NCBI GenBank assembly: GCA_935421135.1
Contig: OW285194.1
Coordinates: 13,229,376 to 13,293,375, forward strand
Source of the DNA: Bugulina stolonifera
Taxonomy: Eukaryota > Bryozoa > Gymnolaemata > Cheilostomatida > Bugulidae
Length of the DNA: 64,000 bases
Direction of reading: 5' to 3'
Shown here: positions 6,870 to 53,930 of the stretch, piece by piece
Position numbering within the stretch: position 1 is the stretch's first letter
Layout: every line of letters starts with the position of its first letter
The notes under the pieces: generated by a model
Database searches by the model: none
Told to the model about the DNA's origin: nothing
The model's input: only the letters and a program-made list of their open reading frames with translations
Program-made: the position numbers and the translations under genes

Positions 6870-9739
6870 ATGGAGACCGAATTGATGTCTTCAGCAGTTT
6901 TGCTGGTGGTTTACTGTTCAGGTAATGCCTATCGCAGCTAGATTAGTAGATTTAATCAAACAGCCTGTTCCCTGAACACATTTCACCATAGCAAACTCCA
7001 TTCTAATTTATTCAATTTCTTTTGCTGTAGACGATCAACAAATGGCGAATCAGATGAGTTATGAAGCCAAGTACAATGTAGCTAGATTTATTTTATTAGT
7101 ATAAAATAGCAAAAGTACACTACTATTTTACAATAATATTGTGAGAAGCTTTTATTATTTTGTTATCGTATACCATAATTACTTTATTGTTATATACAGT
7201 GTACATGTATAATAGTGTTACAGTAATATTGTTATTTTTATACCATCAAGAGTTGAATAGTGGTTTTAGGAATGCAACAATACTAAACTTCAATGGAACA
7301 TGCTGCAATTGGTTATATTATCATTATATTATATTATATTGTTATATACTTTGTATTGTCCCATGCATTTCCACGATAGAATTATTTACTATAACTAGGT
7401 TATTTCATTACTACCATATGAAACTACAGTAATACGTAAGTGAATATAAAATTGTGTATAAACTAGCTTCTATTTTCTGTTACAGTTGCAAATCAGTAAA
7501 TTTACCATTATAATGATCCTTATAGCAAAAAGTTATGTATGTTGCAGTTATCATACATGCAGCCAGTGAAACACTATCAGATAAGATTGATAGACTCACT
7601 TGTTAGCATGAGGACGATTTGGCGCAGCCGGTTGTCAAGTTGGAGTTGTGCTCTACTGCTCACCATTTCATGGAATGCGGTGTAAGTCTAGTTTATGCCA
7701 GAGCCGTTTATACTGTGAGAATTACCGTACTGGAAGTAAATGAGAGGTCATACTGAGCCCAGTAACGAAAGGCTAAACTCAAAACTGGTAAAACTTTTTT
7801 CGGTCGATTTGATTGGTTATAATAGGCTCAACATGACGCACAGTGTTCCCTGGCGACGCAATTCTTGCAATACACAGCTCTGTTTTATGCTGTTTACATA
7901 AGTATACGAACTATACTAGATAAATATATGGAATCGTTGTTGTGTTATCTTGGTATAAATGCAGATTGAATAAAATATTGTTGGTTATACCAAAATAAAG
8001 TAGACTTATGATTACTTGATTACTATATTGATATTTACATATAACACTAATGTCACAATGTAGAGTAAGTAGTAGCAGATATTGTGCAACCTGTGTAGCC
8101 TCAATACCATGGTATATACTTCACCCTACCCAAAGATATGAGTTTTAGGCTTTACTACTATCTCTACCAAAATTGCCAAGTCAGATGTGCAGTTGATCAA
8201 TTTTATTTACTAGTGAGAGACCACTTTACATCAATTCACTAATCCTGGTCATCTCTCTATGTGAATAGTAGGAGTTGTCATTTCATAAAAAATTGAGAAA
8301 AGACAATTTCTTATATATTCAACATTGATGAATATAAATGTACAATAATTATGTACAGGTGAACGCCCAGTCTCACTAAGGGAAGCTACACATGGAATAA
8401 TTCATGTTATAACAACAGCTTATGAGCTAGATACAGGGCATTTAAAACAAAACAAAGTTTCAGGTTGGATTACAAAATTTAAAATGCAAGTGTTTTCTAC
8501 CTACTACAATGCAATGTTTTTAAATTTTAGTTTAGGTCAATATACTGCAGGGAACATCACAAATTCAACTACTGCAGACGCCCTAACTTCTAGCACACAA
8601 AGACTTGATCCTAACATAACCACCACAAACACCGCAACCTCCACTACCACCGCAACCACCATACAAACATCGGTCCCAAATGCATCAACCAATGCTGTTA
8701 CCACAAAAATAATTACCCTAAGTACAGTAACCACTCAGACTACCACAGAAGCAACAACCCCAAGTACAGTAACTGCTTCAACTACCACAGAAGCAACAAC
8801 CCCAAGTACAGTAACCACCCCAACTACCACAGAGGCAACAACTCCAAGTACAGTAACCACCCCGACTACCACCGAATCAACAACCCCAAGTACAGTAACC
8901 ACCCCAACTACCACCGAATCAACAACCCCAAGTACAGTAACCACTCCAACTACCAGAGAGGCAACAACTCCAAGTACAGTAACCACCCCAACTACCACCG
9001 AATCAACAACCCCAAGCACAGTAACCACTCCAACTACCCCAAGAGCATCAACTGCAAGAGCCATCAGGTCAGCCACTGTGATGAATAAGCCTGACCGACC
9101 AGTTTACACTCTGAAGCCCAATGGAGGTAAGGTGACTCATGGGCTGCATGTGTTATTAACAAACAATGCGCGACTGTTTGAAAAAGACAGTTCGAAACAG
9201 GACATTTCAAAAGTGGACAGTTCAACACCGGACAGTTCGAAACGCCTAGCCCCAAACCCCAACCACCAGATTTGAACTAGTTTTTGTTTTTAATATTATT
9301 TGTTTAATCAATTAAATTAATTAACTAAAATTAGTTGTCTGTAAGTTGTGTTCTTCTAAATGTAATCAAACTGTCTGGTTTAGAACTGTCAGGTTGTGAA
9401 ACGTCCTGTTTCGAACTTTTTTTTTCGAAATATCCCTTTATCATTATTAACCGGACTATTCAACAACTACAACTAATTCTACCGCTTGGTATCTTGATGG
9501 GTAACAAATTTCTAGATGAGTGCAGCCCCAACTATGCTAATATCAAAAGTATCGTTATTTTTTTGTTATTTGTAGAACCACGGTCTAAAGGTCTAAAAGT
9601 TGCAAGCATCTACCTGCTAGTAGTAATTGCCATTATGCTTGTGTTATTAATTGGACTATTCATAAAGCTCTGGATTGGACAACAAACGCCAAAGATTGAC
9701 GCTAATATCGATTTCATTTACAACAAAAACATCACGTGA
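6870..9739 (+). CDS. Gene C: short mucin-stalk type I membrane protein, paralogue of A and B
   Basis: Reconstructed exons: 6870-6921 (signal peptide METELMSSAVLLVVYCS), 8551-9126 (mucin stalk) and 9576-9739 (membrane helix and tail). All three junction phases are 1 and compatible. An open stretch 8359-8550 (GERPVSL...) could be an extra exon or a 5' extension of the mucin exon. The stalk is Thr/Ser/Pro-rich with a 14-residue repeat containing PSTVTTPTTTE, expected to be heavily O-glycosylated. The last exon gives SKGLKVASIYLLVVIAIMLV then a short tail with PKIDANIDFIYNKNIT, matching genes A and B (IDPNI-x-F). No Ig exon was found between signal peptide and stalk, so it may be a degenerate or minimal copy. 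The stalk and tail exons are firm; the middle is not. Confidence 0.6.
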
Positions 9740-10220
9740 ACATTGGGAGTGTATCAATCAAAAGAGATCACTGATTGAAAGTTAAATTTCATTTGGTCTC
9801 CAAAGTGTTTTTCCTTCACGTCATGACATAGGTCGTATTCTGGATAGTTGTATTTACGGCAGCAGTACATGGATATAAGGATCAATCACTATAATTAGCG
9901 TGCCAATTCATGCACAATATCCATTGAGACTCTATTCATGTTGAATCATGTAAAAGGTTACATCTACTATATGGGAACAGTTGTGATAATTATAATAATA
10001 TCAGTCTAATGAAGTTATTGATATTTATAATATTAGTCTAATGTTATTGATAATAATATTAGTCTAATGTTCTTGATATTTATAATATTAGTCTAATGTT
10101 CTTGATATTTATAATATCAATATAATTAAGTTCTTGATATATTAATAATATTTTAGTCCAATAAAGTCGTTGGTATATTACTATCTTGGATATTAAGTGT
10201 ACAGTTGTGTCAAACCAGTA

Positions 10221-10465: not shown

Positions 10466-10700
10466 ACAGCTAGGAGCACTTAAAGTATCAAGTCAGTCAG
10501 TAATACAGCATTACTCAGACTAGCCCTGTAGGAACTGTTGTAATGTAATAAAGCACTTACAGCTACTAAACCAGCATCAAGTGTTAGGACAGCTAGTGTA
10601 CAGGAGTGAAAAAAGAAAAGAAATAGCATTAAAGTACTGCTATTTATATGAATTTGTTTGGAGAAAATAAATCAATAAATTTATGATGCAATGGTGACAG

Positions 10701-11562: not shown

Positions 11563-11570
11563 AGCTATAA

Positions 11571-12325: not shown

Positions 12326-12492
12326 TTATGGTTTAGCACCCTTATCAAATTTGAAGCTTATATTTGGATCAATTTTAGCTGCAGGTCTTCTGTACCAGAG
12401 CTTCACAAAGATGGTGACTGATGCTACGAGCAATAGAGTGCTGACGACAAAAGCTGTTATAGACCCAACCCGTATGGCTGACGTGGTTTTCC
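12326..12492 (-). other. Gene A membrane-spanning and cytoplasmic exon
   Basis: This final exon encodes a membrane-proximal GKTTSAIRVGS, a helix (ITAFVVSTLLLVASVTIFV), then KLWYRR as stop-transfer and a tail ending KIDPNISFKFDKGAKP. The helix start and the I-D-P-N-I-x-F tail match gene B (33962-34125) and gene C (9576-9739), which ties the three genes together. No ITIM or ITAM is visible. Confidence 0.85.
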
Positions 12493-15400
12493 CTGCTGGA
12501 ATTAATAATAAGAATTTATTAATTGATGCTAGTTACATTGACTGTACATTGACAGTGGGCAAATAGACTGAGTTCTCAAAGACTGACACAAGAAGTTCTT
12601 TATTCAGCACGCGTGGCATCAGTATAAAAACTATCTCTACTCATTTCAAATAATATTGAAGATGAGGCTGGGTGCAAATTTAATTTATTGTCAAGTTTTT
12701 AGATAGAATATTTCTTCTCTGGGAATTTTATCTGCCAATCATATTTCTACTAGCGCTATTTCCCAAAAGGTGTTATATTTTGTTTAGTGTAGAGGAAACA
12801 TATGTGGCCAATAATCGCCAATAATCATCCTTTCAATAATAGAACTTTAAACAGTAGGTGGAATCCACTGTCTATGAATCTCGCCATCAATGTGATTTGG
12901 GAACTGAGGTTGGAATTTTGGCTATTTGGCCATAAACTTTCTCCTCTTGTACAACCAATAATAAGTGTCACCACGATTCAGTTTAAAATCCAAGTTTCAA
13001 CGATGTCAGTGTCAGTGTGTAGTAGTAGGCCTACTTAAACGTGAACTGTTCTAATCATTTTGTCTTATTTCTTTTGGTTGTTTGTAGATGGAGATCAGCA
13101 TAACATAATATGTATCATGTATTAATTCCAACTACAATATTTAGCTGAAAATTTATGCAATAGGCTGGGCAGCCATCATATTATTTTCTTACCAGTCTTT
13201 TTTCCCTGATTTGTCAAGTTTGGCTGATTGCTCTCGTCATCTGTTCGAGGTCTGAGCGTTCGACTCTGGGTGGCTCTCTGCTGCGTGGTTGCGCTCTGGG
13301 TGGCTCTCTGTTGCGTAGTTGCGTTCTGATTCGAAGATGTGGTAGGAGGTTGAGTCACTAGTATTATGCCGGGACGTGTGGTAACTGTAGACTGTTCAGT
13401 AGATGATTGACTGAAAGTGGCTCTAGTAGTAGCTGGTGATCTTGAGGTTGATAGTGTGCTTGACTGTGATTGGCTAGTTGTTGATGCTGTGGTATTCAAA
13501 GGCAGTTCTACAATAAAATTAACTTTATTTTGCTGACTATCATGGTTTCATTTCTTCTAATCAATTAACATGCTGATCTACATGTACATGTATGCTACAA
13601 GTCATATGAGCTATACCGTTCTCTCTCAACAAATCGATCATAACAATTATTCGGTTTACTAAATGTGAAGGAATGAATGAGTAATTCTGGGAGAAGAAAA
13701 AGGTTTCGCTACGAATAAAAGATGTGAATTTTGTGTAAAACGAAAATCTGTCACATAGCCACAAATGAGGTTTGTGGTTGTAAAACAGTATTTTAGTTAA
13801 AACTATAGTTAATGCCATAAGGCTAGTACTTTTAATTCACAGTATTACGTGTATGTTTGCCAAACATCGCTAATTACCACTTAAATAAAGTTTTTGGTAC
13901 AATATTTGAATCTTTATGAATACATTTAAGTAAACTTTACTTTCAAACTGTAGTTTCAATTGTTGTAAATAAACGGGAATAAATACTATATACATGTAAT
14001 TTGAAACAAATAAAGCATTTTGTTGTGATACTGAAAAGAAATGTAGAGTGTGACTAGTTTTTGACATATTGCAGGAAATACCTTCAGACGAAAGAACCAG
14101 TGTCTCACTATTTCCTTTCTTCCACTTAGGGTGAGTACTATCTGTACACATTAGCGTTAATTCATCCAGATCTTCTACTGTCGGTGTATAGAAATTAGTA
14201 TTCGACAGTGTATTGGCTCCTTTACTAACTCCTGCATTGAAGAGGAAATAACAAGGAGTTATCCCAATAAGACACAGGTATTGTCGCTATAGATGACTGT
14301 GCTGTAGCTATTTTTGGTCTATTAACACTTACTGTAAATAAAGACGGAATTAGCTTCTGGCGGTGATGAGTGGCAGGTAAAGTTAAAGCGTTCGTTAGCT
14401 TTGACCTTGATCTTGACCTCTGGTGGATCAACTATCAGCGTAATGTTCTCTGGAGGAACTGAAACAGAACGAGAAGAGATGACACTCTGATACTACAATC
14501 TAGAAACAGCTGCGTAGAATAATTTTGTGCAAATATTGTAACTTGTGCTTGAGACCTTCCATATTGTTTCTACATTTTTTACGTTACACCAACTTGGCAT
14601 ATTCTCCAATGTTAGTATAAGCCTAGATAGTGTAAAGGCTAAATCATATTTGGAGGTGATATCTTAGCTATAAGATTATACATACTAGCATACCTTGTAT
14701 GTATTGAAGGTTTTTTATGGCTAGCCAAATGTGTTTTGAAATAATACATATTTAGCATTACCAAATATTTCAAGAAGCCTCTAGTATGTCTTCTCAACAC
14801 TGTGCCCAAAACACAATCATCAGCTTGAGGTTTCTAGGAAGGTGATATAAAATTGCAACCATGCTTTGGTAAAGCCCCCGAATCTAAGATATTCGTACCT
14901 TTAACTGTATCCACTGTCACATTTGTAGTTGTCCTCTCCTCTCCATTGCCAGAGTCGACAGTATGACAGTAGAAATAACCATTTACCATGTGACTCATCA
15001 GTGTAACATTGAACTGAAGGTTCACTAGGGAAGATCCTGTCATGGCTGCCGGGCACTCAAATGGCTGAATTCTGATTGAATGTGTCACATTTCCACTGGT
15101 TTTAAACATCCAATTACCAGCCTCATCCAGTTCACATCCAATTTTAAAAGACTGACTGTTAGAGGTCTTGTTGTAATATACCAGAGTAATTTCACTAAGA
15201 TAAGTGAAATTGGTAGCCATACAAGTTATGAGGTTAGGCTGTCTGACGTAAATATCCGGGAAAGTAGAAGTTTTGTGTGAGATGTGTGCCACACCATCAA
15301 CTAAGAGAGAAAAGAATGAAAGGTCATTTCAGTAAGACTCAGCTGCAATTGAGGACATATTTTGAAACTCATACTAAATAGACATGAAAACTTACAATCT

Positions 15401-18400
15401 GAAGATATAATGAGACCTCTGCCCTGGGGTCTCCAGTTAGGGTGGACAGTATCAAAACAGTTCACACGGATCCCAGAGACATCTGAGCTTGTTGGTGTAT
15501 AGCTCGAAGTGTTAGACAATACTTGACCATCTCTACTCTTTATCTCTTTGAAAACGAAATGTAAATTACTGTCAACTAAAGGTAGCTTAGACAAATAATA
15601 TGTCAAATTCCATTCGCTAATGCAATAATATACTTCTAGTGTACATTATGCAGTGTACAACAGAAATTGGGATACCTCATAGTACGAAGAGTGTTCTATT
15701 AGCCAGAATGAGACTTACCATATCCATAGTCAACATTTCCAGAAGAGCTAACACATGACACAGTGAAAGGTGATCCCTCAACGATTGGCCAAGGGTCTAT
15801 TGTCATGTTAACATCCTGTTTTGTTGGTTGTTCTACAATCATAAATTACTAAGATATTGTCATAGACTACAGCTTAAGGTAATGGCTGGGTTAGCCTGGA
15901 AGCATTTCTTATGTTTCTACATATATGTAACAGTATGCATGTGTGTAAACAGTGTCCTTGATTACTCTACAGTTTAAAAAGATTTCTACATTGTATGTGT
16001 AGATATTGAGGAAGAGCAAACATGTGTATTCAATAATTTACCTTTTAATTCTGTCACATTCAGCCCTGCCATATAGTGGTTTCCTGTAAAACTTTCATAG
16101 GCTAAACATTGAAAGGTACCGTTTTCAATACCCATTGTATTATTAACTGGCACGGTAATCATCTGCATTTCATTGCCGCCGACCATGTGCTCACACATCT
16201 CAGGTGTTGTTATAGCCATGAAAACAAAGATTCCACTTGTCATTGCATCAATGTTATACCCATTCTTCCACTTCCTCGTCTGGTGGTCGTACATACACCA
16301 GGTGCTGAAGTTTCCTGACAGACCAAAGAAGTTTAGTCGTATCCTAGTCAACCTTGTAAAGTTATGCGCTATGCATGAGACGTCCGTCATGTCATGCAGG
16401 TAGAAATCAGGTTCTCCATTTGATTTATACTCAATCTGGATTTCTGCATCAGCTATCGGCAGAAATAGACGCGATTAGTAGCAGATATATGCAAATGCGC
16501 ACTTTCTTACAGCATATGCAAAGAGGTAAATTTGCATTACAAAAAACTGCTACTACTACAACCATCAGCAACAATGGTGACCACAATTCTTACTATTACC
16601 ATTAATACCAACACCACCACTCCTCCCCCCCCCCCGCACCACCACTTATACCACCATCCATTTGCTATAAATTATCTTGGGATGTGGACAGGACAATGTA
16701 GTATGTTGTGTATATCATATCAGTTAGTAAAAACATCTCCAATTAAGCAACTGTCATGTTAAAATCCTTTTGACTCAATGTAAAACCATTACTCAGTCAC
16801 AGTGTTAGGAGGTTTGGCCATTTTTTATATTTATAATGTTCGTTTTTGTAAGAATTTTAAAATGCATTTTATCTGCAAGGAATAATAGTTTTAATGTAGC
16901 GTAGCTAATTCTAAGCGAGCAGTCCTAATATATGTGTTTTTTCCTTGCTTAAAAATGAATCATATTGCTCACAATGGTAGGATATGTTCCGCCCTAGCTT
17001 TGTGTTTTCTCCAATCCAGTTCGGATGATGAGGGTTTGAACACTCTAGAGTTATTCCATATTTGTCCTCTTCAGCAGGAGTGTACATGGCATCCTTAATA
17101 AGCACCATATCTCCCCGTTTGACCACTGTATCAATACATGTGTGTGATCTTTAATATGAGCACAAAATTCCAAAACCAGCAATATTACAAATCTCTTCAT
17201 TGCCTCCAGAGAGTCGAGTTCGAATCTACAGCATAGCTGTGTTGGATATTTTTTCTATAGAGGAGGAATATGCATGTACATGTATCTGCATTGAAAATTT
17301 CATGTATTCATTCTTCTCCCTTTTATCTGATTTAAATACTTCATTTACAAGTTTGGGAATCAGTAAATAAACAAAAGTGAGTTAGTTACAAAGTACGATA
17401 GTAATGCTGTAGCATAATTAGACTACTCACCGTAGGTATAGTTCATGTGGCCAGTGGTAGATGAGTTACAGCGGAATGTAAACAGTTTACCCTTCATTAT
17501 TGGCAGAGGTTCAATAGACATGCTGATTGGCTGTGGTGGCACTGTAAAATTTAAGGCAACAAAATAAAATAACTCTCCACTGTGTACATGTCATGGCATT
17601 ACTACCAATGGCTACAACACTGTTATTAGTAGTAATTAGGGCAGTGATCTCAGAAGCATCAAGCACTGAATTATTCAGTTTACATGCAGGTCATGAAAGA
17701 ATTTAAAAACACATTTTATCTGCAAGGAATAATAATTTTCACTTGGTGTGGTTAATTCTAAGTGAGCAGTCCTAATGTAATAAATGTGCATGTGTTGTTT
17801 CATGTATTTATAACCTATCGACAGTATTTTAATAGTAACTAGTGAGACGAGCACTTCACACAATATTTCAACAAAAACACAACACGATAATTATATCCAC
17901 ACTTTTCTAGCAATAAAAATTTACGAGCCGGTGTAATATCACTAAGTCAGAATTTGACATGCTTACTTTGAACTTGTGTGATAATGGTCACATTTGACAC
18001 AGTAGAGTCCGGCTTTGATGGATCAATGTCGGTAGCATTGCAGAACACCTGTGCCCCATTCATATCCGATGACAATGTCAAGGTTACTGTAAACTGAAAT
18101 TCTCTCAGAGACTGCATAGTGGGAAGGCACACACTATCGGTTGGGTCCTTCAAGTAGGCGTCGGCACTGGAGACTCTCTCCCCAGTCATGCAACCAACGT
18201 GGTACGAGGAAGTATTACTCTGGTACACAAAAGTAAGTTCTTGGATGGATCGGAACCCATGAGCATGGCAGGTAATGTTTAGTTTTTCTCCGCTATACAA
18301 GTCAGGGAATGTTGACGTATTCATATGTAGGCTCACCTTAGGGTCTAAAAGGTACAGCGATCATTTTATTTGAGGTTTGTCTACATAATTATTGCAGCAC

Positions 18401-33961: not shown

Positions 33962-34125
33962 TTAGGGCCCTGTCCACTTGTTATACATGAATTGTATGTT
34001 TGGGTCAATCATAGCTTTACCAGGTCCAATCAGAATGCCAGCCAAGATGCCTATCGACGCGATTAGCAGTAATGAGCTCACAACAAATACAACGATGGAT
34101 CCAGCTCTCAGGCCTTTTGGTGTAC
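33962..34125 (-). other. Gene B membrane-spanning and cytoplasmic exon
   Basis: Encodes GTPKGLRAGS, the helix IVVFVVSSLLLIASIGILAG and a tail ending MIDPNIQFMYNKWTGP. Exon length (164 bp) equals that of gene C's last exon, and the tail motif I-D-P-N-I-x-F-x-Y-N-K is shared. Confidence 0.88.
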
Positions 34126-40100: not shown

Positions 40101-43100
40101 TTACTTTGTCTAACATCTGAGCGAAAATTATATAACAACTTTTCAATAAAATCCTTCAAGGAGGAGAATTTAAGCAAAATATTAATAACTGGAGAGGTCA
40201 GATACGAAATTAACAAGAAAATTAATAGGAAAAAATTTAACTTTTTTGGTAAATATGCCATGTAAATTGTTGTTGCAATTGCTTCCTATGACCGTATTTC
40301 TAACTAAGTACCGTATAGCATAATCTCTTTCCAATAATAATACAAACTTACGGTAAAGGTAATCCATATGGTCACTAGTAGAAGAGTTGCAGTAGAAAGA
40401 AATTGGGCGGGATTTAAGAATAGGAAGTGGTTCGATGCCCATAGTTATTGGTGTCGGTGGCGCTAAAAATCATTAAAACAGGATGTACATCATTCTAAAG
40501 CTTCGCAACACGTTCAAAGATTTTGCTTCCTCAAACACATGGATGCGATAGTATCTTTACATAATTACTTCACTCTTGCATATATCTTTCACCAAAATCT
40601 TAATTGTACAATTACTTTACAAAGCTTACAAAGTTTACAAAGCTGTGGTCTAACTTGGATAGCATTTCAGAAGAGTTTCATAAAATAATGTTGCTTCTAG
40701 AAGGTGCTGAGCTTATTGTAGGTAATGAGAATAACCAACAGGCTTATTTCCAGCTAGCAGCAAATAATTACATGTATTATAAAGCCTTCACTTTAAATTA
40801 AAAGAAGAGTGATAGAAGGATATTATCAACCTACATTTCAGACTTGTGATCGTCAGTTGATTAGACTCATACTGAGATTCGCTGGATGAAAAAAGCGTTC
40901 CTTTGCAAACAAACATTCCACCCTGATGCTCTGCCGTCAACATCAAACTGAATGTAAAGCTTGTCAAAAAAATTGCAGTTTCGTAGCATCGAGGGAAAGA
41001 TGGGTCTGTAGTATTGATCCCATGACTTGCCACTTTCACCCCGTCGATGCATCCAACATGAAACGATTTATTGGTATTAGTATTTGTGTAGATCAAGCTA
41101 ATGTTGCCCAAAGTATTAGAATACCCAGGGCCGCCTCGGCATGTCAAAGTCAACATTTCATCCGTGTAGAAGTCAGGAGAAGACGACCAATTTCCCTGTA
41201 GACTAATACCTGGTGCTAAAATAAACGATTCACATACTACTTTGTTTATTTCATTAAAATACTTACAAAATCTTGAATGTATTAAATGGCAGTCAAAGAA
41301 AGGCTACACTAAACTATTCAAAAATGTCATTGGCTAGCTAGGCCACCTGGTAGCAAACCCAACACCACTGTCTAGGACTCGCTGCTAGAGGCACGTCGTA
41401 TCAATGTCGCAACTCTTTACTCATACAGAATGTCAACATACCTGCTGTGGTCGCTTTGGTCGTTGTGGTAGTTGGTGTTCTAACTGGAGGAGTCGTAGGT
41501 GTTGTAGTTTCCGGAAGCATGGTGGTGGTAGTAGCCGTTGCTGATAGTACAGTGGTAGTAGTTGGCACCTGTCTGGTGGTATTGGGTGCTGGTACAGTAG
41601 TTGTTGGTGCTGGTACAGTAGTTGTTGGTACTGGTACAGTAGTTGTTGGTGCTGGCACAGCAGTTGTTGGTGCTGGAACAGCAGTTGTTGGTGCTGGAAC
41701 AGCAGTTGTTGGTGCTGGTACAGCAGTTGTTGGTGCTGGCACAGTAGTTGTTGGTGCTAGTGTTGTGGTTGCTGGTGCTGGTACAGTAGCTGTTGGTGCT
41801 GGCACAGCAGTTGTTGGTGCTGGTACAGCAGTTGTTGGTGCTGGCACAGCAGTTGTTGGTGCTGGTACAGTAGTTGTTGGTGCTGGTACAGTAGTTGTTG
41901 GTGCTAGTACAGTAGTTGTTGGTGCTGGCACAGTAGTTGTTGGTGCTAGTGTTGTGGTTGTTGTAGGCATCACTGTATGTTAAATCACAAAGTCACATAG
42001 TCAAACAAAGCTAGTGTAAGTCAGTGACATGAGTGGACACGTGGGAAGCAATAAAAGTTCTGAGTAATTTGCCTTTTGTCTATAGGGAGCATCAATGTTG
42101 GTTAATTGACAATATGTCTGATTAAAAATTAATGTCTAAATGCAACAAGAAGTACTAGCCAAAATATTTTCTTCTTCAACAGAGAAAATTTAGACCTTGT
42201 TTCTAAAAAGTTTAGCATCGTACAAATACTAATTCCCATTGCAATTCAAAGACAAATTTTTTAGCTTTGTATGTACATGTAACTATTTTAACTCCACTTG
42301 GGTAAATGCATACTAACATTATTATCCAGTGTGGAGTAAAGGCAATGAAGCTGAGAGAATAAATTTTTGCTTTTTCTAGAATTGTATCTAATATCAGAAC
42401 AATATTAATAATGCATGAAAATAGTAGCACTTGGGGCGTACTTCTTCTAACTGTCCAATATTTTCAGTAGTAGAAATTTTTTTCAACTCTGCTGTAAGAT
42501 TTTGCAGAAAACATTTTAATTTTGTACATATTTTAAATGAAGTATTTTTTAAATGGAATATAAGCACAAAAAATACTTGTACTCATTGGTTTGTATAGTA
42601 TTGTGTATAGAAAACTTCTTGAGTTTGGGGTTACTGGGGAAGTGCTAGTCTGCCCCATTGTAAAATTTTGTCTTTTAGAACATGTGGAAGTTACGATACC
42701 TTCAGAGTCAATGGTTACGCTGCTAGAGTTGTACTCTTTCATCGTTGCCGCGTCCATTGCACTGCAAATGTATGTTTGGTTGGCCGAGCTCTGATTGAAA
42801 ACGATATCAAAATTCATCACAGCATCTCTTACATCATTTAAAGTTGAGGTACACATAGAGCTGTCTATCATAGTAACGAGGTCAATTCCACTTCCGGTGC
42901 GTACCCAACTTCCTGATCGCTTATCGCAGCCAACATTTGCTTGGCCATCTTCTGAGCCAAGACTCAAATATGTGATGTCATAGAACTTTTTGAGCTCACA
43001 GCTAATCCGTATCGTCATACCCTCCATTAGTCCATAGTTGGTGTAGTTAGAATCCAGCCTGATGTCTGAACAGAAATAAAATAATTAAAAGTAAAATATC

Positions 43101-46100
43101 ATATCTAAACGATAAATGAATAGATCGTAAAATTGTAGACAAATACTGACATGGCTATTGGTATTCCTATATTTCGGAAAACCTTAACAATAAATGCACA
43201 TCATTTCTTCCTCTACCCCAACCATTCATCATCAGTGTCTTATGATTCTGTAGAAAATTTTCAAGCATTTAAACATCTGCGTGTGACTCATTGTTGAAGA
43301 AAACTGTGTGTTATCACGTTCACATATTATGGCTACCATGCTACTGTGATACTATTGGCACAAGCTATGCTCTGCATCAACGTCATCCCTTTTTAATTCT
43401 GGTAGTAACAACAAAATATTTCCAGTAATGAGATGATGACATATCTACCCTACTGTGCTATAAACTTCATCACCTTAAGCAGCCAGCTCTGCCGCAGAAA
43501 AGTGTATGTGTTACCTAATGCTCGTGTTACTATTGCACAGAGGACCAATGTGGTTTCGCAAAATTTTGACAATAATTATCAGTATGATGTTTTTAAAATA
43601 TTACCAAGTGGATAAATAATTATTTGAGCCAAAAAATTTAAAAAAAATGAAAAGAGAAAAACTTATGAAATACATACCAGGGATATCATTAAGTCTGGTG
43701 ACATCAACTAAAACAAACATAAATTATTTTGTATGTAGAAATTTCATCATGCATTTGTATCCAAGTTGGCCAAATGTAAGAATGTTTGCCTAGAATTAAT
43801 CTACATGGTGGGCCTATGTTCAACCTACGTAACGGGTGGATTGATAACATTTCCTATTTAGTTCTCCCATTATTTAACAGGATACTCAGGCAATAAAGTA
43901 CTTCCTAACTCATATAATCATGTTGGTTATTTATACTACTTTTAAAATGATCAATTTTGAAACAATCACTTGTGATACAATCATGTAGTTCTGCACTTCA
44001 CATGCATTTAATGTCTACATGCTATATTTTATCACTATAATTATTACTGCATAATGCTTGTGGAGTTCATGGTGAACATGTGGTATTATGTGTATGTTTG
44101 ATACAACCAGAAATATTCTGTAAAATTCCCATTAGCTCACCAAATTTAACCCCTTCTGTCAGAATAAGACATCGAGAGTTGTATAAAAATTTGATTGAAG
44201 TTAATTTTATTCTACAAATTTTCTTCACTTCCAACTCACATGCTTGAAAGTTGGTATATTTATACTAAATATGATGAATTGGATTATTTTGAGTCACAGC
44301 TTATCAGATTTGACGGATTCCGACTCTCCCAATGTCTGATTCTGATCGTAGAGGGTCACACTTGATTGTGTGAGAGTACACAGGTTTTACTACATTGTAA
44401 TTTCTCGTGAAATACTCACCAAAAGTGAACACCTGGCTGATCTCCTCATAAACAGTAATCTTGTCATTACTTGACCAAGCCGCTGACTTGACATCAGATA
44501 GCGAGCATGGGAGGGTAGTAGTTGAGCACATCTCTTGAAGTGCCTCTACAAGTGCATACACAAAGTATCAGTCACATTGCATATTAGACACGCCCCAGCA
44601 CAAACACATTCAAATAATATATAAACTCAAACCCATCATCCAATAATTATATTTCAATAATAACAAAGGCTCACCAATATCTTTAGAAGTTTCGTTATGA
44701 GTTTGGATATCCAGAAAGTAAATCTTGTCAGTTTCATGGTCTCCTATCAGCAAAACCTTCCCATCAGGTGACACAGAGACATCGGCTGATAAATTTCCTA
44801 ACTCAAGCTGTTGTTCGACCCTCAATGCATTCGGATCGACAGCGACAGAACTAGAAAAGAACCTCATATTGTCAGCATCAAACAAATTGCAATAACTACA
44901 TGCACATATGCATTGTACTAGAGTGTATTGAGTGATTGACTGGCTACCTCTAGGGTTACGAGTGGCACTGTTTTACGATATTACAATATTGATATCTGTG
45001 CCTAGTGGTAAGGGCTCTGGACTTCCATGTGAGAGTCCCAGGTTCGATTCCCATAAGGTTCATTGGTGGTGTTAGGAAGAGCACTCAGCCACAATTGCTC
45101 CTGTGTCTCATATAATACTTTGCCATTGGTGAAGTGCCTTCTCCGTCCCAAATTAAACAAAATGCAGATCTCTTTAGATCCTTGCTTTCTTACCTGGGAT
45201 TAATAGTGGGAAGTAAAATTCGTAAGTTTTTTATATCTGTGCCATTACATTAAAACTTTTACACATAGCTGATAGGGTGATGCCAATATACTTTTAAGGT
45301 AGCCTTCACACTTCATCATAGCCATTGGGTCTGATAAGAACTAAACTAATTCAGCACAGCAAATGTGGTTTAGTAGTATGTTAATTAATTGGTCATGCAA
45401 AACACAGAATTGGCTGAAATGCAAGTTGCTGGCAGAAGGAAAGGAGGACCAAAATGCAGATGGATGGACACAGTAAGTGCTGAATTGAAGCGTTTGGGCA
45501 GTCACATAGATGACATAGAAGAACAAGTGAGATGGCAGTAGCCTGCAGTATGGTCACTCAAACAGGACTACAACCGTATAAGTGAGAAACACAAAAACGA
45601 CTAATAGCATTAGCAAATCTAGCCAATAGACTGCTGTATGTGATCTCATAATGACATAAGTAAAACTGTTTGATTACCTGATAAAGGTTACATAGTTGAC
45701 TCCTTTGGTTAGGTTACCAGCAGCACTCGCAAATGTTGACTCATCATATCGCCGGATTCCTTGTACATAAACATATTAAACTGTAATCTTGGTATGCATA
45801 GTAGCCATAGCAACGGCTATGCTGTTTATAGCGGCCATCTTGTATAATAACAAGATCACCAGCATACTATCATAATGCAGTTCTAAAAAGCATGCTTATT
45901 AACTCTCTTAGCAATAAATAAGAAACATGTTTATGCAAAGTTGGTGGCATAGTAACCCTTAAAGATAAATGCAGCGCCACAATTATACATTTGTATAAAT
46001 ATGTAGCATATATTTATGCGGACATGTAAATCAATCAAGAGGTCATAGACATGTGAATCAAGAGGTCATAGACATGTAAATCAATCAAGAGGTCATAGAT

Positions 46101-49100
46101 ATGTAAATCAAGAGGTCATAGATATGTAAATCAAAAGGTCATAGACATGTAAACCAAGAGGTCATAGGCATGTAAATCAAGAGGCTATAGACATGTGAAT
46201 CAAGAGGTCATAGACATGTAAATCAAGAAGTCGTAGACATGCGAATCAAGAGGTCATAGACATGTAAATCAATCAAGAGGTTATAGATATGTAAATCAAG
46301 AGGCCATAGACATGTAAATCAAGAGGTCATAGACATGTGAATCAAGAGGTCATAGACATATAAATCAAGAGGTCATAGACATGTGAATCAAGAGGTCATA
46401 GCCATGTAAATCAAGAGGTCATAGACATGTAGATCAAGAGGTCATAGACATGTGAATCAAGAGGTAATAGACATGCAAATCAAAAGGTCATAGACATGCG
46501 AATCAAGAGGTCATAGACATGTGAATCAAGAGGTCATAGACATATAAATCAAGAGGTCATAGACATGTGAATCAAGAGGTCATAGCCATGTGAATCAAGA
46601 GGCTGGGGAATAGTTGCAACACTGAGACACGAACTTTGATTGTTTCTAGAATAAATTTGATTCCGTCTCTTTATATTAGAATATTAATATAAATAGCAAA
46701 AGTAGTAGAAGGAGAGATATTGTATGGCTCTGTATCAAAGCGTCCCTGGTTCACATTTAAAATTTTCACGAGCCCAATCACGTAGTTATTCGCAAAATTA
46801 GTCACATACCATTTCCAACCTTTTGCCAGATGAATTGACCATGACTTGTCAGAGTGAAAAATGGTTCCCCTACTGATACTGCTAGAATTTGAAGTGGATC
46901 ACCTCCACTTGTCTCATCCCACGTGTACAACCCTTTCTGTAAGATAAATAGCCAGATTTTAATTCTTTGCCACCGATGCAAGCGAATAAAGGAGGTAGTA
47001 AGTGTGGGATATAATAGGAAAAAAGAAGAGTAGAGGAAGGCAAGATATGGGAAATTAGAGAAGAGAGAAAAGGAACGAGGAAAGAGAGAAAATCAGGGAA
47101 TTTAAAGATATTCACAACCTGGTTTTAAATAATAAGAAAGTTGAACAGGTATGAAATCTAATGACAACAAAGACTATATTGTCCTGCTACTTCTATTACG
47201 ATCATCAGTGAACATACAGTACAAGGAGCAGCCGTGACCTAATAGATTAGAGCTCTGAACATTCATGCAGAAACTCTATGTGTGATTTTGGTAAAGGTCT
47301 TTGGGGGTGCTAGATGTTTCTGCATCACATAAGCACCTTGCCTTGCCGAAGGCAGCATTTTTCTAGCCCAAATAAGGTAAAATTTGATTTCTTCAGATAC
47401 TAGCTTTTTTACCTGAGATTAATAGAGGGAAGTAAAATCAGTAGGTAAACATGAAACACATGTTGCAGGATGTGAAAGACGGGTTTGCCAGTGTCGTATA
47501 AATCTTGAACTACACTACATGAAAACAAAGCTTCTTTTTGTGTAAAACTGAGCAATATTGAGTTATTACAACAACATGGTGCACTACTAGCGTTCTAATA
47601 AGACGGTTATGACATCTACCATTTCAAGGAGTTGACATTAAGTATTTACTTACATCTCTGACAGAGAAAAACCAATTTGAGTTAAGATAGGTCATTCCTA
47701 TTACAGATGGGGTAGCAGTGTTCATCCCAATAGAACCATTCCCACACTCACCTATAAAGCATATTATACCTCACCATTTGACCAATAGAAATAATGCCTA
47801 CACTCTTTCATCTACCACTAAGTACTAATATAGTTCACTTTTGAGCTTCCAAGTATTGCGACTGAGTAGGCTACGACTAAATAGCTGGGCATTCCACACT
47901 GTAAGTGTTGAAAGTTACACGTTGTTTGACTGAGTGGTCTGCTGTGTTAAAGAATGTATATGAGTTATACACATGTTTTTGGCGCGTAACAAGCCTCATT
48001 ATATAGTATTGTAATGGTTTCTGTGATTTGGTGCGGTCGTCCTTAGACGACTATCGACCCAGAAATGAAGTGCCTATGAGTGGTAATAGGACTTCGCATT
48101 ACATGAAAGATCGAGCGGTCTCAGTAGCCCAAATACTACCAAAGACGACCTATCTGATCTCAAGTCCGACCTTCAGACTATACAATGAAAGAGAGAAGTT
48201 CGACCTAGTAGGCGGTTCGCTAAGCGAATGACCTAGTAAAAGGAAGAGAAAGTCTCTGTATCAAATATAGATGTGTCTTTATTGAAAGCCAAGTGTAGAC
48301 TGAGACAATGAACAGTAAAACAGTGCCCTTTATATAGTATAAGGACTTCCGGCCGACGTGACGTCGGGAAAAGACGACGTGTGGTCGTCCGGAAGTTGCG
48401 CAACAAGATGGCCGCCGGAAGCCCGACGGCCGACCCAAAATAGGTCGGGTTCTACAAAAGTTGCTTATAATGGTCCAATTCATGTACAAAATGAATATCA
48501 GTGGATTCTGAGAGGTCGGGCCTCTGTACATGGGTATAAAAGGCATTAAAAGACTTAGATATAATCATATAATCATATATAACAATATAGGAGTAAAGTA
48601 CAAGCAGATATATACATGTATGCACGCAATAATGAGTGTCAGATGTAAGATACGACTTGGCGTACCATCACAGTATTATACTAACACTCTTTATACTCAC
48701 CTGAAGTAGACCCTGACATTGTTGCATGTATCCAACTCATATTACAGACATATACCATAATCAAGTGTGCATACAGTATACAGTTAATACATATTATATT
48801 TAATGTACAGACACATACATTTAGGTGACAAACAGTAACAAAAGGGAATTCCTTCAGTCTAAGACAATAATACCTAAGTGACAGCAATGGTTAACTAAAT
48901 AGGAGACCGTGAGCTTCAGTGAAACAATCCCAATGTTTGCTGACACTGCTCTATACGCAATGAGTAGTACCAGTCCATTAGTGGACTTGATTACTAGTCA
49001 GCCTTTAAAGGGAAGGAAAGGCCTCCGTCCAGTCACAAATGACAATGGAATGCTGGGAATACCCAGCAGCGAGCAAAGCCTTTAGCAGTGAAGCTTTCTG

Positions 49101-52100
49101 CTAGTTATACAACATTGCTCTTCATCTCATGTGTGGGGTAATCGGGTTTGATCACAGGAATGTGAGCAAGACCAGGCCACACGTGGATGCCTAACACGTC
49201 TTGCTGCTCAAAACACGTCTTGCTGCCTAACACTTGCTGCCTAACACTTGCTGCCTAGCACTTGCTGCCTAGCACTTGCTGCTTAGCACTTGCCGCTCAT
49301 ACAAGGTTTCAATTAATCTGGATGGCTAGACTCATGACAGTAACAAAAAATTGCAAAAAAGTATACAGCTGTGCACAGCTTTATCATTTATGCAAACAGT
49401 TTTCTTGAAAAACAGGCAAATTAACATAATGAAAGGGTAAAGCCTGTCGACAATAAAATACTTGCCTAAGAGAGTTGAGACATCTTTGGTGTTGAGGTTG
49501 ATGAATCGAGCACATGAAGAGGCATCTATGAACCTCAGGTAACTCACACTGCCAACTACCTCTACATGAAATTGTTCTGGGGCTTTTATCAAAGCATCAG
49601 TACCTTTTCCATCCCAACTGTTCCCAGAGCTGGTGGTTAAGGATACGGATAGATTACCGTATTTAACTAAAAAGCATTTACGCAGATATTCAATTTATCT
49701 TACCATACAATACTAGTTATACGAGTGTGGAAAAAACTGACATGCCCTAACCGAATGTTACAGTAATAAAATTCTTTTTGCACATTAATCTCTCTAGTGA
49801 CTTTTTATATTTGGATGCACAAAGTTTAGGTTATTGACTGTCATGACAAATATGAATAGGTAAGAATTTAGCCAATACACCATTCTACTTAGTGAATTTC
49901 ATTATGGGTGCATAATACATGTTACGTTACACTAAAGCATACATGGATTTCAGACTTAGAACCAGTGTTCGGATTGTGGTTATACGGGAGTATACGGCAT
50001 GTACCCTCCTCAATTCTTTGCCAATTTAATATTTTGATCAAATTGGCTTCTAAAGTTTTTTCCATTTCGATATTAATAGGTTTTACAAAATAACATATGA
50101 GAAATAGGTGACAATATGTTTGGTAAACATTTTTATATTAGCAAACTCTAAGTACTACTGTTTGCCCACAAATATACAACATTTTAGGCATTGACAGGAA
50201 AACAAGGGAGACAAGTTTCTCAAACATTTTCTGCATGCACTGTGTACCCACATCATTTGTTCTACTTTTAACACTGCACAGAATTATATTTTATTGAAGT
50301 ATGCCAATGATCTACCAACTACATAGCTCAACCATTTATTAATGCAATTAAAACTAACATGTGTGAGCAGACATAGCCCTCTGCACCTGCCACAAACCCT
50401 CATGTATTTGAGGGGTGCAGTTCATCAATAAAGAGTGGTACTAGATACAATTTTTATGTCATTTCCAAATTTCAATAGCATCTCTGTTGTCATCCTTGGA
50501 GAAAATACATGACATTGAATCAGGTTTTCTACTAATGACAACAGGACTACTAATTGAAATAGTGGTAGAATGAAATCCAAACTGTGTCAGGCATTACTCT
50601 TGATTGTTGATTGTGCATTAGACAGTAAATTGAGCAAAGATTTTAAGTTCTGTAAAGCATACCATCTAAATTTTGGTATGAGTTCCCATCTAATGCGGAA
50701 CTAATTCCTCCAGAGCTGTCACCACATAGCCCAATAAGTATGGTAGCCAAACTCCCTATGCCACCAGCAGTGTAAGTCTAAAACAATCAAGCAATCATTA
50801 TCTTATATTAGAATGGTTAGTAAAAGTTATTTTAGCAGAGTTGGTGAGGGTTGTCTCATGCGGCGTAAAAATATCCCTCTTTGATGTCAGCCCAACTTGT
50901 CATGTATGGTGGACATGTAGAGTTAGCTATGTGTGGTAGTCCATGAGAGACTGGACATGTATGCTGAAACACCACAATATAAGTAGTGCTTCCGTGAGGT
51001 TGCATAACTTTCAAGAGTTACCCAAATTAGTGTACCAGATCATAAGCTAGCTCTAGTCTACCACTAAACTTCCACCAAGAGCCTAATGGCTCCCACACAC
51101 AACATGGTAATTACTAATATTATACGTGTATAAGTAGTCTTCTGCAAATACTACTACCAAGCCACTGCTAGCTATTGTCACCACTGCCTATTAACAACAA
51201 CAATGCTAGATGAATGTAATAAGTTAACAACATAAACATTTGTATTTGCACTTGACTTACATACACAACTGAATTACATAGTCACATCAAATACAACAAG
51301 TGGTTCATAAAAGGACCTTAGTGGAAAGAGCACAATGCAAAGAAGGGCTGGCAGCAGTTGCAGCGGCATTATGTACCAAGTCAAAAAGTCTAAAGTATCA
51401 GCCATTCAGAATTATGTAACTACATGACGCAATGGTATTGCACAACAATATGGTGGAAACTAAACAGGGACCAGAACTGGGCTCCCATTAGTGACGGAAG
51501 AAAAAACGATGGAAATCTCACAGTTAATGACAATGCTAGAATCAGCATTATAAAATTTGGTAACTAAATTACTATCAATGTGCATAAGTTCAATGTGCAA
51601 TGTGAAATGTGCATAAGTCACTGGCTAACCACTGATCACCAGTGGCTAACTACAATGGTCACCAGCAGCTAACTACACTGGTCACTAGTGGCTAACTACT
51701 AGTCACCTGTGGCTAACTACACTGGTCACTAGCGGCTAACTACACTGATCACTAGTGGCTAACTACACTGGTCACCAGCAGCTAACTACACTGGTCACTA
51801 GTGGCTAACTACACTGATCACCAGTGGCTAACTACACTGGTCACTAGTGGCTAACTACACTGATCACCAGTAGCTAACTACACTGGTCACTAGTGGCTAA
51901 CTACACTGGTCACCAGTGGCTAACTACACTGGTTACTAGTGGCTAACTACACTGGTTACTAGTGGCTAACTACTAGTCACCTGTGACTAACTACACTGGT
52001 CACCAGCAGCTAACTACACTGGTCACTAGTGGCTAACTACACTGGTCACTAGTGGCTAACTACACTGGTCACTAGTGGCTAACTACTAGTCACCAGTGGC

Positions 52101-53930
52101 TAACTACAATGGTCACCAGCAGCTAACTACACTGGTCACTAGTGGCTAACTACACTGGTCACTAGTGGCTAACTACTAGTCACCAGTGGCTAACTACACT
52201 GGTCACCAGCAGCGAACTACACTGATCACTAGTGGCTAACTACACTGGTCACCAGTGGCTAACTACACTGGTCACTAGTGGCTAACTACACTGATCACTA
52301 GTGGCTAACTACACCGGTCACTAGTGGCTAATTACACTGGTCACCAGTGGCTAACTACACTGGTCACTAGTGGCTAACTACACTGATCACCAGTGGCTAA
52401 CTACACTGGTCACTAGTGGCTAACTACACTGATCACCAGTGGCTAACTACACTGGTCATCAGTGGCTAACTACACTGGTCACTAGTGGCTAACTACACTG
52501 ATCACCAGTAGCTAACTACACTGGTCATCAGTGGCTAACTACACTGGTCACTAGTGGCTAACTACACTGATCACTAGTGGCTAACTACACTGATCACCAG
52601 TAGCTAACTACACTGGTCACTAGTGGCTAACTACACTGGTCACCAGTGGCTAACTACACTGGTTACTAGTGGCTAACTACACTGGTTACTAGTGGCTAAC
52701 TACTAGTCACCTGTGGCTAGCTACACTGGTCACCAGCAGCTAACTACACTGGTTACTAGTGGCTAACTACACTGGTCACTAGTGGCTAACTACACTGGTC
52801 ACTAGTGGCAAACTACACTGATCACCAGTGGCTAACTACACTGGTTACTAGTGACTAACTACACTGGTTACTAGTGGCTAACTACTAGTCACCTGTGGCT
52901 AACTACACTGGTCACCAGCAGCTAACTACACTGGCCACCAGTGGCTAGCTACACTGGTCACTAGTGGCTAACTACACTGGTCACCAGTGGCTAACTACAC
53001 TGGTCACCAGTGGCTAACTACACTGGTCACTAGTGGCTAACTACACTGGTCACCAGTGGCTAACTACTGGTTACTTGTGGCTAACTACTAGTCACCAGTG
53101 GCTACAAAGAGAGTACAATAAATCAGTTTAAAAGTCGTTATGTCTTATAATTGTACCTCAGTCGTCCATTATGTCATTGTGTATGCCTCACTGGAGTTAT
53201 AAATTTTATACAAGTCTATGAATGATGTAGCGAAACTTAATTGTCAGTAACTTACTTTCTACATGTTTCTTTATAACTAGCAGTAGTGGGAAACGTATGT
53301 TGTATATGCACCGCATGCTTAGTAAGTAACACTACATGTACGTCTATTGTTGACCCATTTCTTTACTGGGTGCCGATGCAATAATATAAATTTACTGACC
53401 AGTAAAGCATTAGTGCAGACGGTTTCATTACCACTTGGAGAACTGAGAGATGTTGCTTGACTCGTAATCCTTTTAACCTGAACCACCTGAGCATTGCAAT
53501 TCCTACAATGAACATTTGACACTTTGGAAAGTATGTAACATTATACTACAGCCGTGGTGCTCTAGCGGAGCCCTCCAAACGAGCCCTCCAGAAGAGCCCT
53601 CCAGAAGAGCCCTCCAGAAGAGCCCACCAGAAGAGCACTCCAGAAGAGAACTCCAGAAGAGCACTCCAGAAAGACATGCAAATAAGCGAACACAGTTCTG
53701 TTGGCTGAATGATTCGCCCTAGTTAAATTAAGTTAATTAATGATCACGCCGAAATCGTCTTCGCAGGTTATCCCAGCTAACTAAATGAGCATTAGCAAAT
53801 CTATCGACAGTAGTAGTAGTAGCAGTAATAATCAAATATATATTAGGGATGCGTTTACTAATGAATTTTACCTCAAAAGCAGAAGTAAGATGAACTGCAG
53901 GACAGAAAGCGAACACATCATGCTAGTCAT
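33962..53930 (-). CDS. Gene B: head-Ig-mucin type I membrane receptor-like protein (23 exons)
   Basis: Exons: 53872-53930, 53400-53502, 50663-50777, 49466-49666, 47654-47751, 46810-46936, 45678-45759, 44675-44850, 44420-44545, 43678-43707, 42700-43065, 41442-41972, 40835-41215, 40352-40462, 39964-40116, 38589-38987, 38255-38368, 37505-37654, 36881-37282, 36527-36640, 35655-35813, 34616-34825 and 33962-34125. Every junction is in phase, giving about 1,455 residues: signal peptide MTSMMCSLSVLQFILLLLL, head (~20-372), one four-Cys Ig module, mucin (~494-671), three composite units (~671-1332), Thr-Arg stalk, helix and tail. All junctions use GT-AG except intron 4, which is GC-AG. It is a tandem paralogue of gene A with fewer outer Ig modules. 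An extracellular adhesion or recognition role is likely but unproven; no annotated family was recognised. Confidence 0.85.
34616..34825 (-). other. Gene B juxtamembrane Thr-Arg stalk exon
   Basis: A 70-residue exon starting GWPRTTSTTTTRT, with repeated T-T-x-R-T-T triplets, then a charged end (FERDNGGGDTDQQDKIRNRG). The Thr-Arg repeat is unusual for a mucin, which is normally Pro/Ser rather than Arg-rich. Confidence 0.82.
35296..35540. repeat. Tandem repeat, about 75-bp unit, in a gene B intron
   Basis: Two and a half copies built from smaller 12-15 bp blocks such as TATGGTTGCTATGGTGAC and CTTAATAAAGTTATCATGG. It lies between the last split-module exon and the stalk exon. Confidence 0.85.
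39080..39265. mobile_element. SINE 3' part
   Basis: Ends TTTGAGATTAATAGTGGGAAGTAA, matching the tails of the SINE copies at 44985-45225 and 47225-47450. The tRNA-like head is missing or diverged. Confidence 0.5.
39285..39450. repeat. 19-bp tandem array
   Basis: Degenerate to perfect copies of CACCTGTATAAAATACCTA; the last three are nearly identical. Located in a gene B intron. Confidence 0.85.
39624..39865 (+). mobile_element. tRNA-derived SINE (class II tRNA-like head)
   Basis: Starts GTTGGTGGCCGAGTGGTCTA (A-box-like) and has GTGGGTTCGAGTCCCACC (B box in a T-arm), with GTTGGTG and CACCAAT able to pair as an acceptor stem. An unrelated body of about 140 bp follows (TTTTCGTCCGG...GGCACCACGG). 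I could not fold a convincing anticodon arm, so this is a SINE or tRNA pseudogene, not a working tRNA. Confidence 0.6.
41442..41972 (-). other. Gene B mucin exon
   Basis: A 177-residue exon, mostly a 7-residue repeat PAPTTTV / PAPTTAV in about 17 copies, then a Thr-rich tail (TTTTMLPETTTPTTPP). It sits in the same place as the gene A mucin exon but its repeat unit differs (7 versus 13 residues), so repeats were re-expanded independently after duplication. Phase 1 at both ends. Confidence 0.87.
44985..45225 (+). mobile_element. tRNA-derived SINE
   Basis: A-box-like TAGTGGTAAGGGCTCTGG, B box GGTTCGATTCC, body AAGAGCACTCAGCCACAATT and tail GGGATTAATAGTGGGAAGTA. The tail is shared with two other copies in gene B introns, and the body resembles a diverged inverted stretch near 60650-60810. 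Confidence 0.7.
45417..45600 (+). mobile_element. LINE ORF2 C-terminal remnant
   Basis: An open stretch reads MQVAGRRKGGPKCRWMDTVS then AELKRLG and IEEQVRW before a stop. G-R-R-x-G-G-P-x-x-R-W-x-D is a frequent signature in the C-terminal part of LINE-encoded reverse transcriptase proteins. It is too short to classify. Confidence 0.5.
46021..46603. repeat. 23-bp minisatellite in a gene B intron
   Basis: About 25 copies built on GACATGTAAATCAAGAGGTC + ATA, with TGTAAATC / TGTGAATC variants in alternation and a few 27-bp copies with AATCAATCAAG. The array ends about 200 bp from the exon 6 splice donor. Confidence 0.95.
47225..47450 (+). mobile_element. SINE copy
   Basis: Head AGCAGCCGTGACCTAATAGA and tail CCTGAGATTAATAGAGGGAA, matching the 44985-45225 copy in order and tail. 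The B box is degraded. Confidence 0.55.
48010..48672 (-). mobile_element. Solo LTR, copy 4
   Basis: A 663-bp reverse-orientation copy with TGTAATGG ... CCATCACA ends and a different 4-bp duplication GTAT (48006-48009, 48673-48676), proving an insertion independent of copy 2. It keeps TATATAA, AATAAAG, TTGCGCAA and a GATGGCCGCC YY1-like site, and lies sense in gene B intron 4. Confidence 0.88.
49195..49300. repeat. 14-bp tandem repeat
   Basis: Copies of GCCTAGCACTTGCT and close variants (AACACTTGCT, AAACACGTCT). Confidence 0.85.
51625..53105. repeat. 1.5-kb minisatellite, about 64 copies, in gene B intron 2
   Basis: A 23-bp unit containing GGTCACTAGTGGCTAACTAC. Variants are few and discrete: CACTAGTGG, CACCAGTGG, CACCAGCAG, TTACTAGTGG and CTGATCACC. 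Some units are shortened to TAACTACTAGTCACC. The variants recur in blocks, suggesting higher-order duplications. The array fills over half of a 2.6-kb intron and has no coding capacity. Confidence 0.97.
53565..53685. repeat. 13-bp tandem repeat upstream of gene B exon 2
   Basis: Copies of GAGCCCTCCAGAA drifting to GAGCACTCCAGAA. It lies in gene B intron 1, about 60 bp from the exon 2 acceptor. Confidence 0.85.

Follow-up and report, generated by a model that had tools for sequence, protein, structure and literature searches.

The stretch of DNA analyzed here, referred to below as the window, comprises 64,000 nucleotides of the Bugulina stolonifera genome (chromosome 8, C8:13,229,376-13,293,375) and carries two large neighboring genes, A and B, on the minus strand as well as a small gene, C, on the plus strand. 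B. stolonifera (tzBugStol2.1) is described in the excerpted text of PMC10213821 as a colonial bryozoan with an erect growth form, and the genome searched amounts to 235 Mb in 27 contigs. As judged from their sequences, A and B are tandem paralogues and form a headed, mucin-stalked branch of a larger family of immunoglobulin (Ig)-like genes built from two modules, here named X and Y. The models of A and B were derived from the genome sequence alone by scoring of consensus splice sites, bookkeeping of splice phases and comparison of the two genes with each other; a first gene-finder setting yielded 76 exons, which was over-split, and was replaced by stricter penalties combined with A/B pairing. 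Gene A comprises 28 exons from 33,278 to 12,326 coding for 1,920 amino acids, with GT-AG borders at all 27 introns, and gene B 23 exons from 53,930 to 33,962 coding for 1,433 amino acids, with 21 GT-AG introns and one GC-AG intron. Each reads as a single frame that opens with a signal peptide and closes directly past the transmembrane (TM) helix, with zero internal stops. Phase-1 exons make up 21 of the 26 internal exons of A and 15 of the 21 of B, and the predicted proteins contain 45 and 36 N-glycosylation sequons, respectively.

The exon order stated in an earlier reading of this DNA (the original prediction) is present in gene B, and gene A shows the same order plus extras. Gene B begins with a signal-peptide exon (53872-53930; phase 0 to 2) coding for a hydrophobic leader without significant similarity to that of A, followed by eight head exons spanning 44420-53502, namely 53400-53502, 50663-50777, 49466-49666 (with the GC donor), 47654-47751, 46810-46936, 45678-45759, 44675-44850 and 44420-44545. 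A weakly supported micro-exon (44141-44155), placed by its 1-1 phase and its position only, precedes one V-set-like Ig exon of type X (42700-43065) and a mucin-type exon (41442-41924; Ser+Thr 41%, Pro 23%). Three units of three exons each follow, in which one X exon is succeeded by the two exons of a Y module, Ya and Yb: unit 4 (39964-41209; X 40835-41209, Ya 40352-40462, Yb 39964-40116), unit 5 (37505-38987; X 38589-38987, Ya 38255-38368, Yb 37505-37654) and unit 6 (35655-37282; X 36881-37282, Ya 36527-36640, Yb 35655-35813). The gene ends with a Thr/Arg-rich stalk exon (34616-34825), assigned by composition and phase and not by sequence similarity, and an exon for the TM helix, a short tail and the stop (33962-34125).

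In gene A, the signal-peptide exon (33223-33278) is followed by nine head exons spanning 27575-32943: 32837 (or 32841)-32943, 32486-32587, 31488-31673, 31341-31433, 30676-30764, 29521-29668, 29245-29326, 28835-29013 and 27575-27700. The micro-exon (26918-26938) has good splice sites and no similarity to that of B. Three X exons (25896-26285, 23588-23995 and 22356-22739; span 22356-26285) and the second Ig of unit 3 (20938-21706; Ya 21593-21706, Yb 20938-21090) lead to the mucin-type exon (18813-19469; Ser+Thr 41%, Pro 19%), after which come unit 4 (16973-18344; X 17967-18344, Ya 17431-17541, Yb 16973-17125), unit 5 (15396-16452; X 16042-16452, Ya 15719-15832, Yb 15396-15545), unit 6 (14082-15300; X 14899-15300, Ya 14333-14449, Yb 14082-14231), a Ser/Thr-rich stalk exon assigned by composition and phase (13193-13507) and the exon for the TM helix, short tail and stop (12326-12492). 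Relative to B, gene A has an additional head exon, e4 (31341-31433), which was not found in B, and, ahead of its mucin, a complete fourth X-Y unit as well as two additional X exons; the Ya exon of unit 3 had been absent from the original prediction and was added here. Copies of a repeat element lie in introns of A and B in both orientations (24326-25005, 48007-48686, 20138-20729 and 28159-28652), two of them being 91.5% alike, with a further copy just beyond the window. Minisatellites with 23-base units occupy head introns of B at 51622-53104 (about 65 copies) and 46033-46602 (about 24 copies), and the units of the two arrays differ.

The pairing of the two genes was tested by comparison of each A exon with 1,000 shuffles of its B counterpart. 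At least 22 exon counterparts in order had been claimed, and 23 were paired here: 20 pairs, among them all eight head pairs (0/1000 each), beat every shuffle. The signal peptide (75/1000), micro-exon (1000/1000) and stalk (545/1000) failed the test, and the pairing of these three therefore rests on order and phase. The mucin pair passed but is of low complexity (z 4.9) and needs care. The lone V-like exon of B was compared with the three of A, for which 56, 0 and 3 of 1,000 shuffles reached the score, so that only the second beats all and this pair needs care as well; A unit 3 resembles B unit 4 in both Ya (0/1000) and Yb (2/1000). In the final model, 21 of the 23 pairs have matching splice phases at both exon ends; the phases of head exons e2 and e2b differ between A and B at their shared junction, where the A donor (32837) is weak. 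A search between e2 and e3 for an exon of phase 0 to 2 was unsuccessful, and consideration of other phases led to e2b and a longer e3.

The heads of A and B are 46% identical. Outside the tract of sequence exchange described below, synonymous sites were saturated in 10 of 16 exon comparisons, with synonymous divergence (dS) of 0.47-2.05 in the other six, as against nonsynonymous divergence (dN) of 0.30-0.74 and 1.05 for the unmatched pair X1, which indicates that both frames are under protein constraint. The dN/dS ratio is 0.24-0.63 in e5, e6 and e8, the head exons with computable dS.

Furthermore, an exchange tract that was not part of the original prediction links A 14,894-16,156 with B 36,876-38,703, both on the minus strand, in three aligned DNA pieces of 92.3, 92.1 and 85.9% identity, the last of which runs through an intron; B holds extra sequence between the pieces. 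Within the tract dS falls to 0.00 (Ya5), 0.09 (Yb5) and 0.12 (X6), as compared to 1.91 (X4), 2.02 (Yb6) and saturation (Ya6) beside it. The identity regime changes within exon X5, where the middle shows 19-34 matches per 60 columns and the 3′ end 48 and 54; of the blocks that follow, five full ones have 54-59 and a gapped one 31. Near the 5′ end of X5, a single block also reaches 49. Head exon e8 is closer between A and B than the other head exons (dS 0.47). The resulting mosaic is of the kind produced by gene conversion or unequal exchange and points to recent exchange between the two genes.

The X module is a single exon of about 120-135 amino acids with four conserved cysteines in the 10 aligned X exons of the window: C26 and C109 are invariant (10/10) and are assigned to strands B and F by analogy, while C52 (10/10) and C81 (90% or more) form an extra pair. 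No invariant or near-invariant tryptophan of the kind conserved in strand C of V-set domains was found across the 10 exons. Against Pfam, the lone Ig match was Ig_NFAM1 (E 0.025) in one of the 10. A structure model of the first X of gene A, built from the 10-sequence alignment, reached a mean predicted local distance difference test (pLDDT) score of 91.4 and matched antibody V domains and CD8, and X is accordingly modeled, on this one exon, as a two-sheet V-set fold. For the four-Cys module, which had been proposed for profile and structure-prediction searches, the structural side thus stands by model, whereas the curated Pfam Ig cut-off was missed; a V-set fold that Pfam does not recognize here illustrates that sequence models can miss invertebrate diversity of the Ig superfamily (IgSF). 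The Y module consists of two phase-1 exons of about 37 and 50 amino acids with one conserved cysteine each and the motif HP, mostly HPNW. Its best Pfam match among four Y modules was Ig_2 (E 0.0025, below cut-off), and its matches in the PDB were weak but fell to IgSF proteins in 10 of 11 cases; together, these weak matches make an Ig fold of Y likely, not proven.

The head, about 340-370 amino acids long, is probably a beta-propeller of about six or seven blades. Pfam searches with both heads listed Lactonase twice, Kelch_2 and THOC3 (E 0.018-0.11), all below cut-off, and TIGR03866 (E 0.044, below cut-off) is the fifth family row; all five are propeller families and all fall at one blade-like exon. 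When the open frames of this exon were searched alone, five of six rows were propeller families, the sixth being DUF2742, and its predicted structure is a four-strand meander of low confidence (pLDDT 58). A profile search of the PDB with the head returned two rows (E 0.39 and 1.1). Neither head had a Sema or PSI domain among its Pfam matches with E values of up to 1; a remote fold likeness to semaphorins and plexins may be compatible with this result. In the genome, pieces of the A head (a query without e2 and e2b and with some junction letters guessed, by which heads closer to B may be missed) matched A and B. An additional weak match at C8:10630963 (E 0.029, one internal stop) was taken as chance, leaving A and B as the only places where this query located the head.

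Gene C (6870-9739, plus strand) codes for a short mucin-type protein with a signal peptide (6870-6921), a mucin-type exon (8551-9126) and a TM/tail exon (9576-9739). Its mucin exon is of the same kind as in A and B, with Ser+Thr of 53%. The TM/tail exon is similar to those of A (E 7.4e-5) and B (E 1.9e-4), with 0/1000 shuffles each, and as a query against the whole genome this exon matched three places, namely C, A and B. The leader of C is not alike to those of A and B (850/1000 and 712/1000 shuffles) and ends in phase 1, not 2. Of the claim that gene C shares signal peptide, mucin and last exon with A and B, the latter two parts hold and the signal-peptide part fails. The reduction of C to leader, mucin and TM/tail suggests that the membrane anchor common to the three genes is used by a plain mucin too. 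The three tails read KIDPNISFKFDK, MIDPNIQFMYNK and KIDANIDFIYNK; those of A and B have about 20-25 amino acids and share the motif (K/M)IDxNIxFx(F/Y)(D/N)K. Neither an immunoreceptor tyrosine-based inhibitory (ITIM) nor activation motif (ITAM) was found in the three tails by eye, and the TM helix of A has no charged residues. The description of A and B as type I membrane proteins (by model), tandemly duplicated, variable in Ig content and rich in Ser/Thr stretches is in accordance with these results.

The idea of A, B and C as a stand-alone family of three genes had to be given up: the X module occurs at about 49 places in the genome, namely 27 on chromosome 8, 13 on chromosome 10, seven on chromosome 5 and two on chromosome 6, with eight in the window. 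This number, pooled from four X queries (E up to 0.001 or 0.01), is rough and a lower bound; it omits two rows overlapping kept ones (one of 44 and one of 8, in two queries), misses two X exons of gene B and includes two places at C5:5.945 Mb that look like one broken copy. There, at C5:5.9450-5.9453 Mb, the X copy lies in two pieces, one with three stops, and is probably a dead relative. Y exons with the motif stand beside X at three of six loci examined (C5:15.09, C8:13.42 and C8:14.73 Mb). The locus at C8:13.42 Mb, gene D (about 192,880-194,330 in window numbering, beyond the window), has X, Ya and Yb, and the next 11.7 kb hold only one hydrophobic candidate exon, which is unlike the hydrophobic exons of A-C. 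Two X exons, at C8:14.737 and 14.786 Mb, have the same protein sequence from end to end (100% identity), which suggests that duplication in the family is ongoing, provided that the pair does not represent two haplotypes retained in the assembly. More generally, X copies at C8:14.71-14.84 Mb belong to blocks that recur with the same scores (14.711/14.768 and 14.737/14.786), as expected from very recent duplication or retained haplotypes.

A protein search with X alone, which reaches only proteins of about 70-225 amino acids, gave no match at E 0.001 among 248 candidates. Likewise, no match at E 0.01 came up among the 7,992 candidates scored for a query of 1,281 residues, from which the mucin, Ya of unit 3 and all parts beyond unit 5 were omitted, in line with the earlier remark that no named family is known to have this combination. 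These results say little on novelty because the animal protein content of the database is not known. The parts are of known kinds, and for the combination, the X-Y family and the head the lack of a match in the libraries and literature searched is weak evidence of novelty.

Among the neighbors, a long, apparently single-exon open frame for a GT10 fucosyltransferase lies upstream of gene C (3359-4756, plus strand; Pfam E 1.2e-46), a major facilitator superfamily transporter at 56033-58367 (minus strand; MFS_1 in two of three open frames scanned, E 2.6e-14 and 0.0016) and an SRP14 fragment at 61447-61806 (plus strand; E 2.8e-6, just above cut-off). Elsewhere, a dense run of I-set Ig domains at C2:20.055-20.164 Mb, with some open frames of about 900-1,100 amino acids, appears titin-like or hemicentin-like, and two local arrays of nine homeodomain matches each, at C2:3.365-3.494 and C2:20.842-20.878 Mb, suggest lineage-specific homeobox expansions.

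We propose that A and B probably code for surface glycoproteins serving contact recognition or adhesion. They would be large single-pass glycoproteins exposing a binding end on a glycosylated stalk, with the layout signal peptide, probable propeller head, V-set-like Ig, mucin spacer, three Ig pairs, stalk, TM helix and tail. The stalk would raise the head and the outer Ig domains above the cell surface, where these may encounter a ligand or a similar molecule on a neighboring cell or in the water; as the tails have no ITIM or ITAM, signaling, if any, would proceed through partner proteins. Phase-1 modules and gene conversion may diversify the ectodomain. Several points weigh against this proposal: the fold of the head is no more than probable; no Pfam Ig model reaches cut-off for the 10 X exons or four Y modules; the Y motif was not seen at the other three of the six X loci, of which about 3.4 kb each were examined; the junction e2/e2b of A and both micro-exons are uncertain; the splice models rest on the sequence of one genome; and the introns of A and B contain inserted repeats and minisatellites. 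Moreover, protection as a glycocalyx or mucin-like coat fits the mucin parts equally well, and a short motif-free tail lends nothing to a signaling receptor. The evidence cannot choose between contact recognition and immune, adhesive or protective roles, all of which fit.

A possible, though doubtful, alternative is that A and B are developmental adhesion molecules or glycocalyx mucins, monomorphic in the species, whose Ig and mucin parts are structural. The existence of gene C with only leader, mucin and TM/tail, as well as the constraint seen in e5, e6 and e8, would be in line with this, but the divergence of the A and B heads and a large clustered Ig family would be unusual for a housekeeping adhesion gene. 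Allorecognition, a special case of the proposed contact recognition, appears unlikely: polymorphic heads or outer Ig domains would decide on fusion or rejection of colonies or kin larvae, as Alr1 and Alr2 do in Hydractinia. It draws on the colonial life of the animal, on the tandem arrangement of A and B with sequence exchange, on the Alr genes being likewise clustered, single-pass IgSF genes of low mutual identity (excerpt of PMC11067881) and on bryozoan biology, in that fusion may be confined to close relatives and larvae of Bugula neritina show kin-biased settlement, siblings tending to settle together (excerpt of PMC11686985). However, the support available here is the sequence of one haplotype, clustering and gene conversion are widespread in immune, sensory and adhesion families alike, and nothing sets the A/B cluster apart from other X clusters. 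Among the literature matches listed, no title or opening of an abstract named a molecular candidate for bryozoan fusion or rejection. That the A/B locus or a sister X cluster is the bryozoan histocompatibility system deciding colony fusion, by means of V-set receptors with propeller heads and mucin stalks that owe their diversity to the shuffling of units and to gene conversion, is a speculation that we consider improbable; if true, Lophotrochozoa would have an IgSF system of self/non-self recognition that evolved independently. Named exons for resequencing and genes for testing are now available in bryozoans, a phylum whose colonies show both fusion and rejection.

A and B could also be large members of an expanded family of innate immune receptors directed at microbes or symbionts; this possibility overlaps with the proposed contact recognition as well and is likewise held to be unlikely. 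FREPs and VCBPs are innate immune families of this kind in other invertebrates, and the V-set fold of X, the clustering and the recent duplication seen in the identical X pair on chromosome 8 would fit, but no lectin, chitin-binding or signaling domain was found among the Pfam matches of the parts scanned, which did not include the mucin, stalk and TM exons of A and B. Finally, that exons from several unrelated genes have been strung together in the models, or that one copy is a decaying pseudogene, might be suspected from the inserted repeats in the introns and from the signal-peptide, micro-exon and stalk pairs, which are not alike beyond chance. This is very unlikely in view of the exon order shared by both copies, their almost complete agreement in phase, the protein constraint and the stop-free assembled frames.

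With regard to known systems, A and B as surface glycoproteins of contact recognition or adhesion can be set beside four groups of receptors. The X and Y profiles weakly match Ig domains of Robo, LRIG, CD22, LILR and the Fc epsilon receptor, which speaks for the fold and not for orthology; the fibronectin, leucine-rich repeat and ITIM parts of such receptors were not seen in A and B. VCBPs and FREPs are secreted and join V-type or IgSF domains to chitin-binding or fibrinogen domains in expanded families; A and B share the association of Ig with another domain in an expanded family, whereas neither a chitin-binding nor a fibrinogen domain was recognized in the parts scanned. Receptors of the semaphorin/plexin type consist of a propeller followed by Ig-like domains and a TM helix, which would be the layout of A and B if their head is propeller-like, although this head, of about 340-370 amino acids, gave no Sema or PSI match; such receptors are not known to contain a mucin or V-set pairs. 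The Hydractinia Alr proteins, whose IgSF membership was confirmed by domain architecture and AlphaFold (excerpt of PMC11067881), belong to another phylum, and the large head, the mucin and the two-exon Y modules set A and B apart from them. The Alr ectodomain is highly polymorphic and its matching controls fusion, whereas A and B are known here from one haplotype; nothing ties them to Alr by descent, no comparison with Alr sequences having been made, and membership of the Alr family is not claimed. Despite these differences, the likeness extends to a colonial animal, a V-set-like fold and clustered genes for single-pass proteins with Ig-fold ectodomains, the latter found here by gene model, fold model and genome places. 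As B. stolonifera is a colonial bryozoan, the comparison with Hydractinia Alr is a biologically sensible one.
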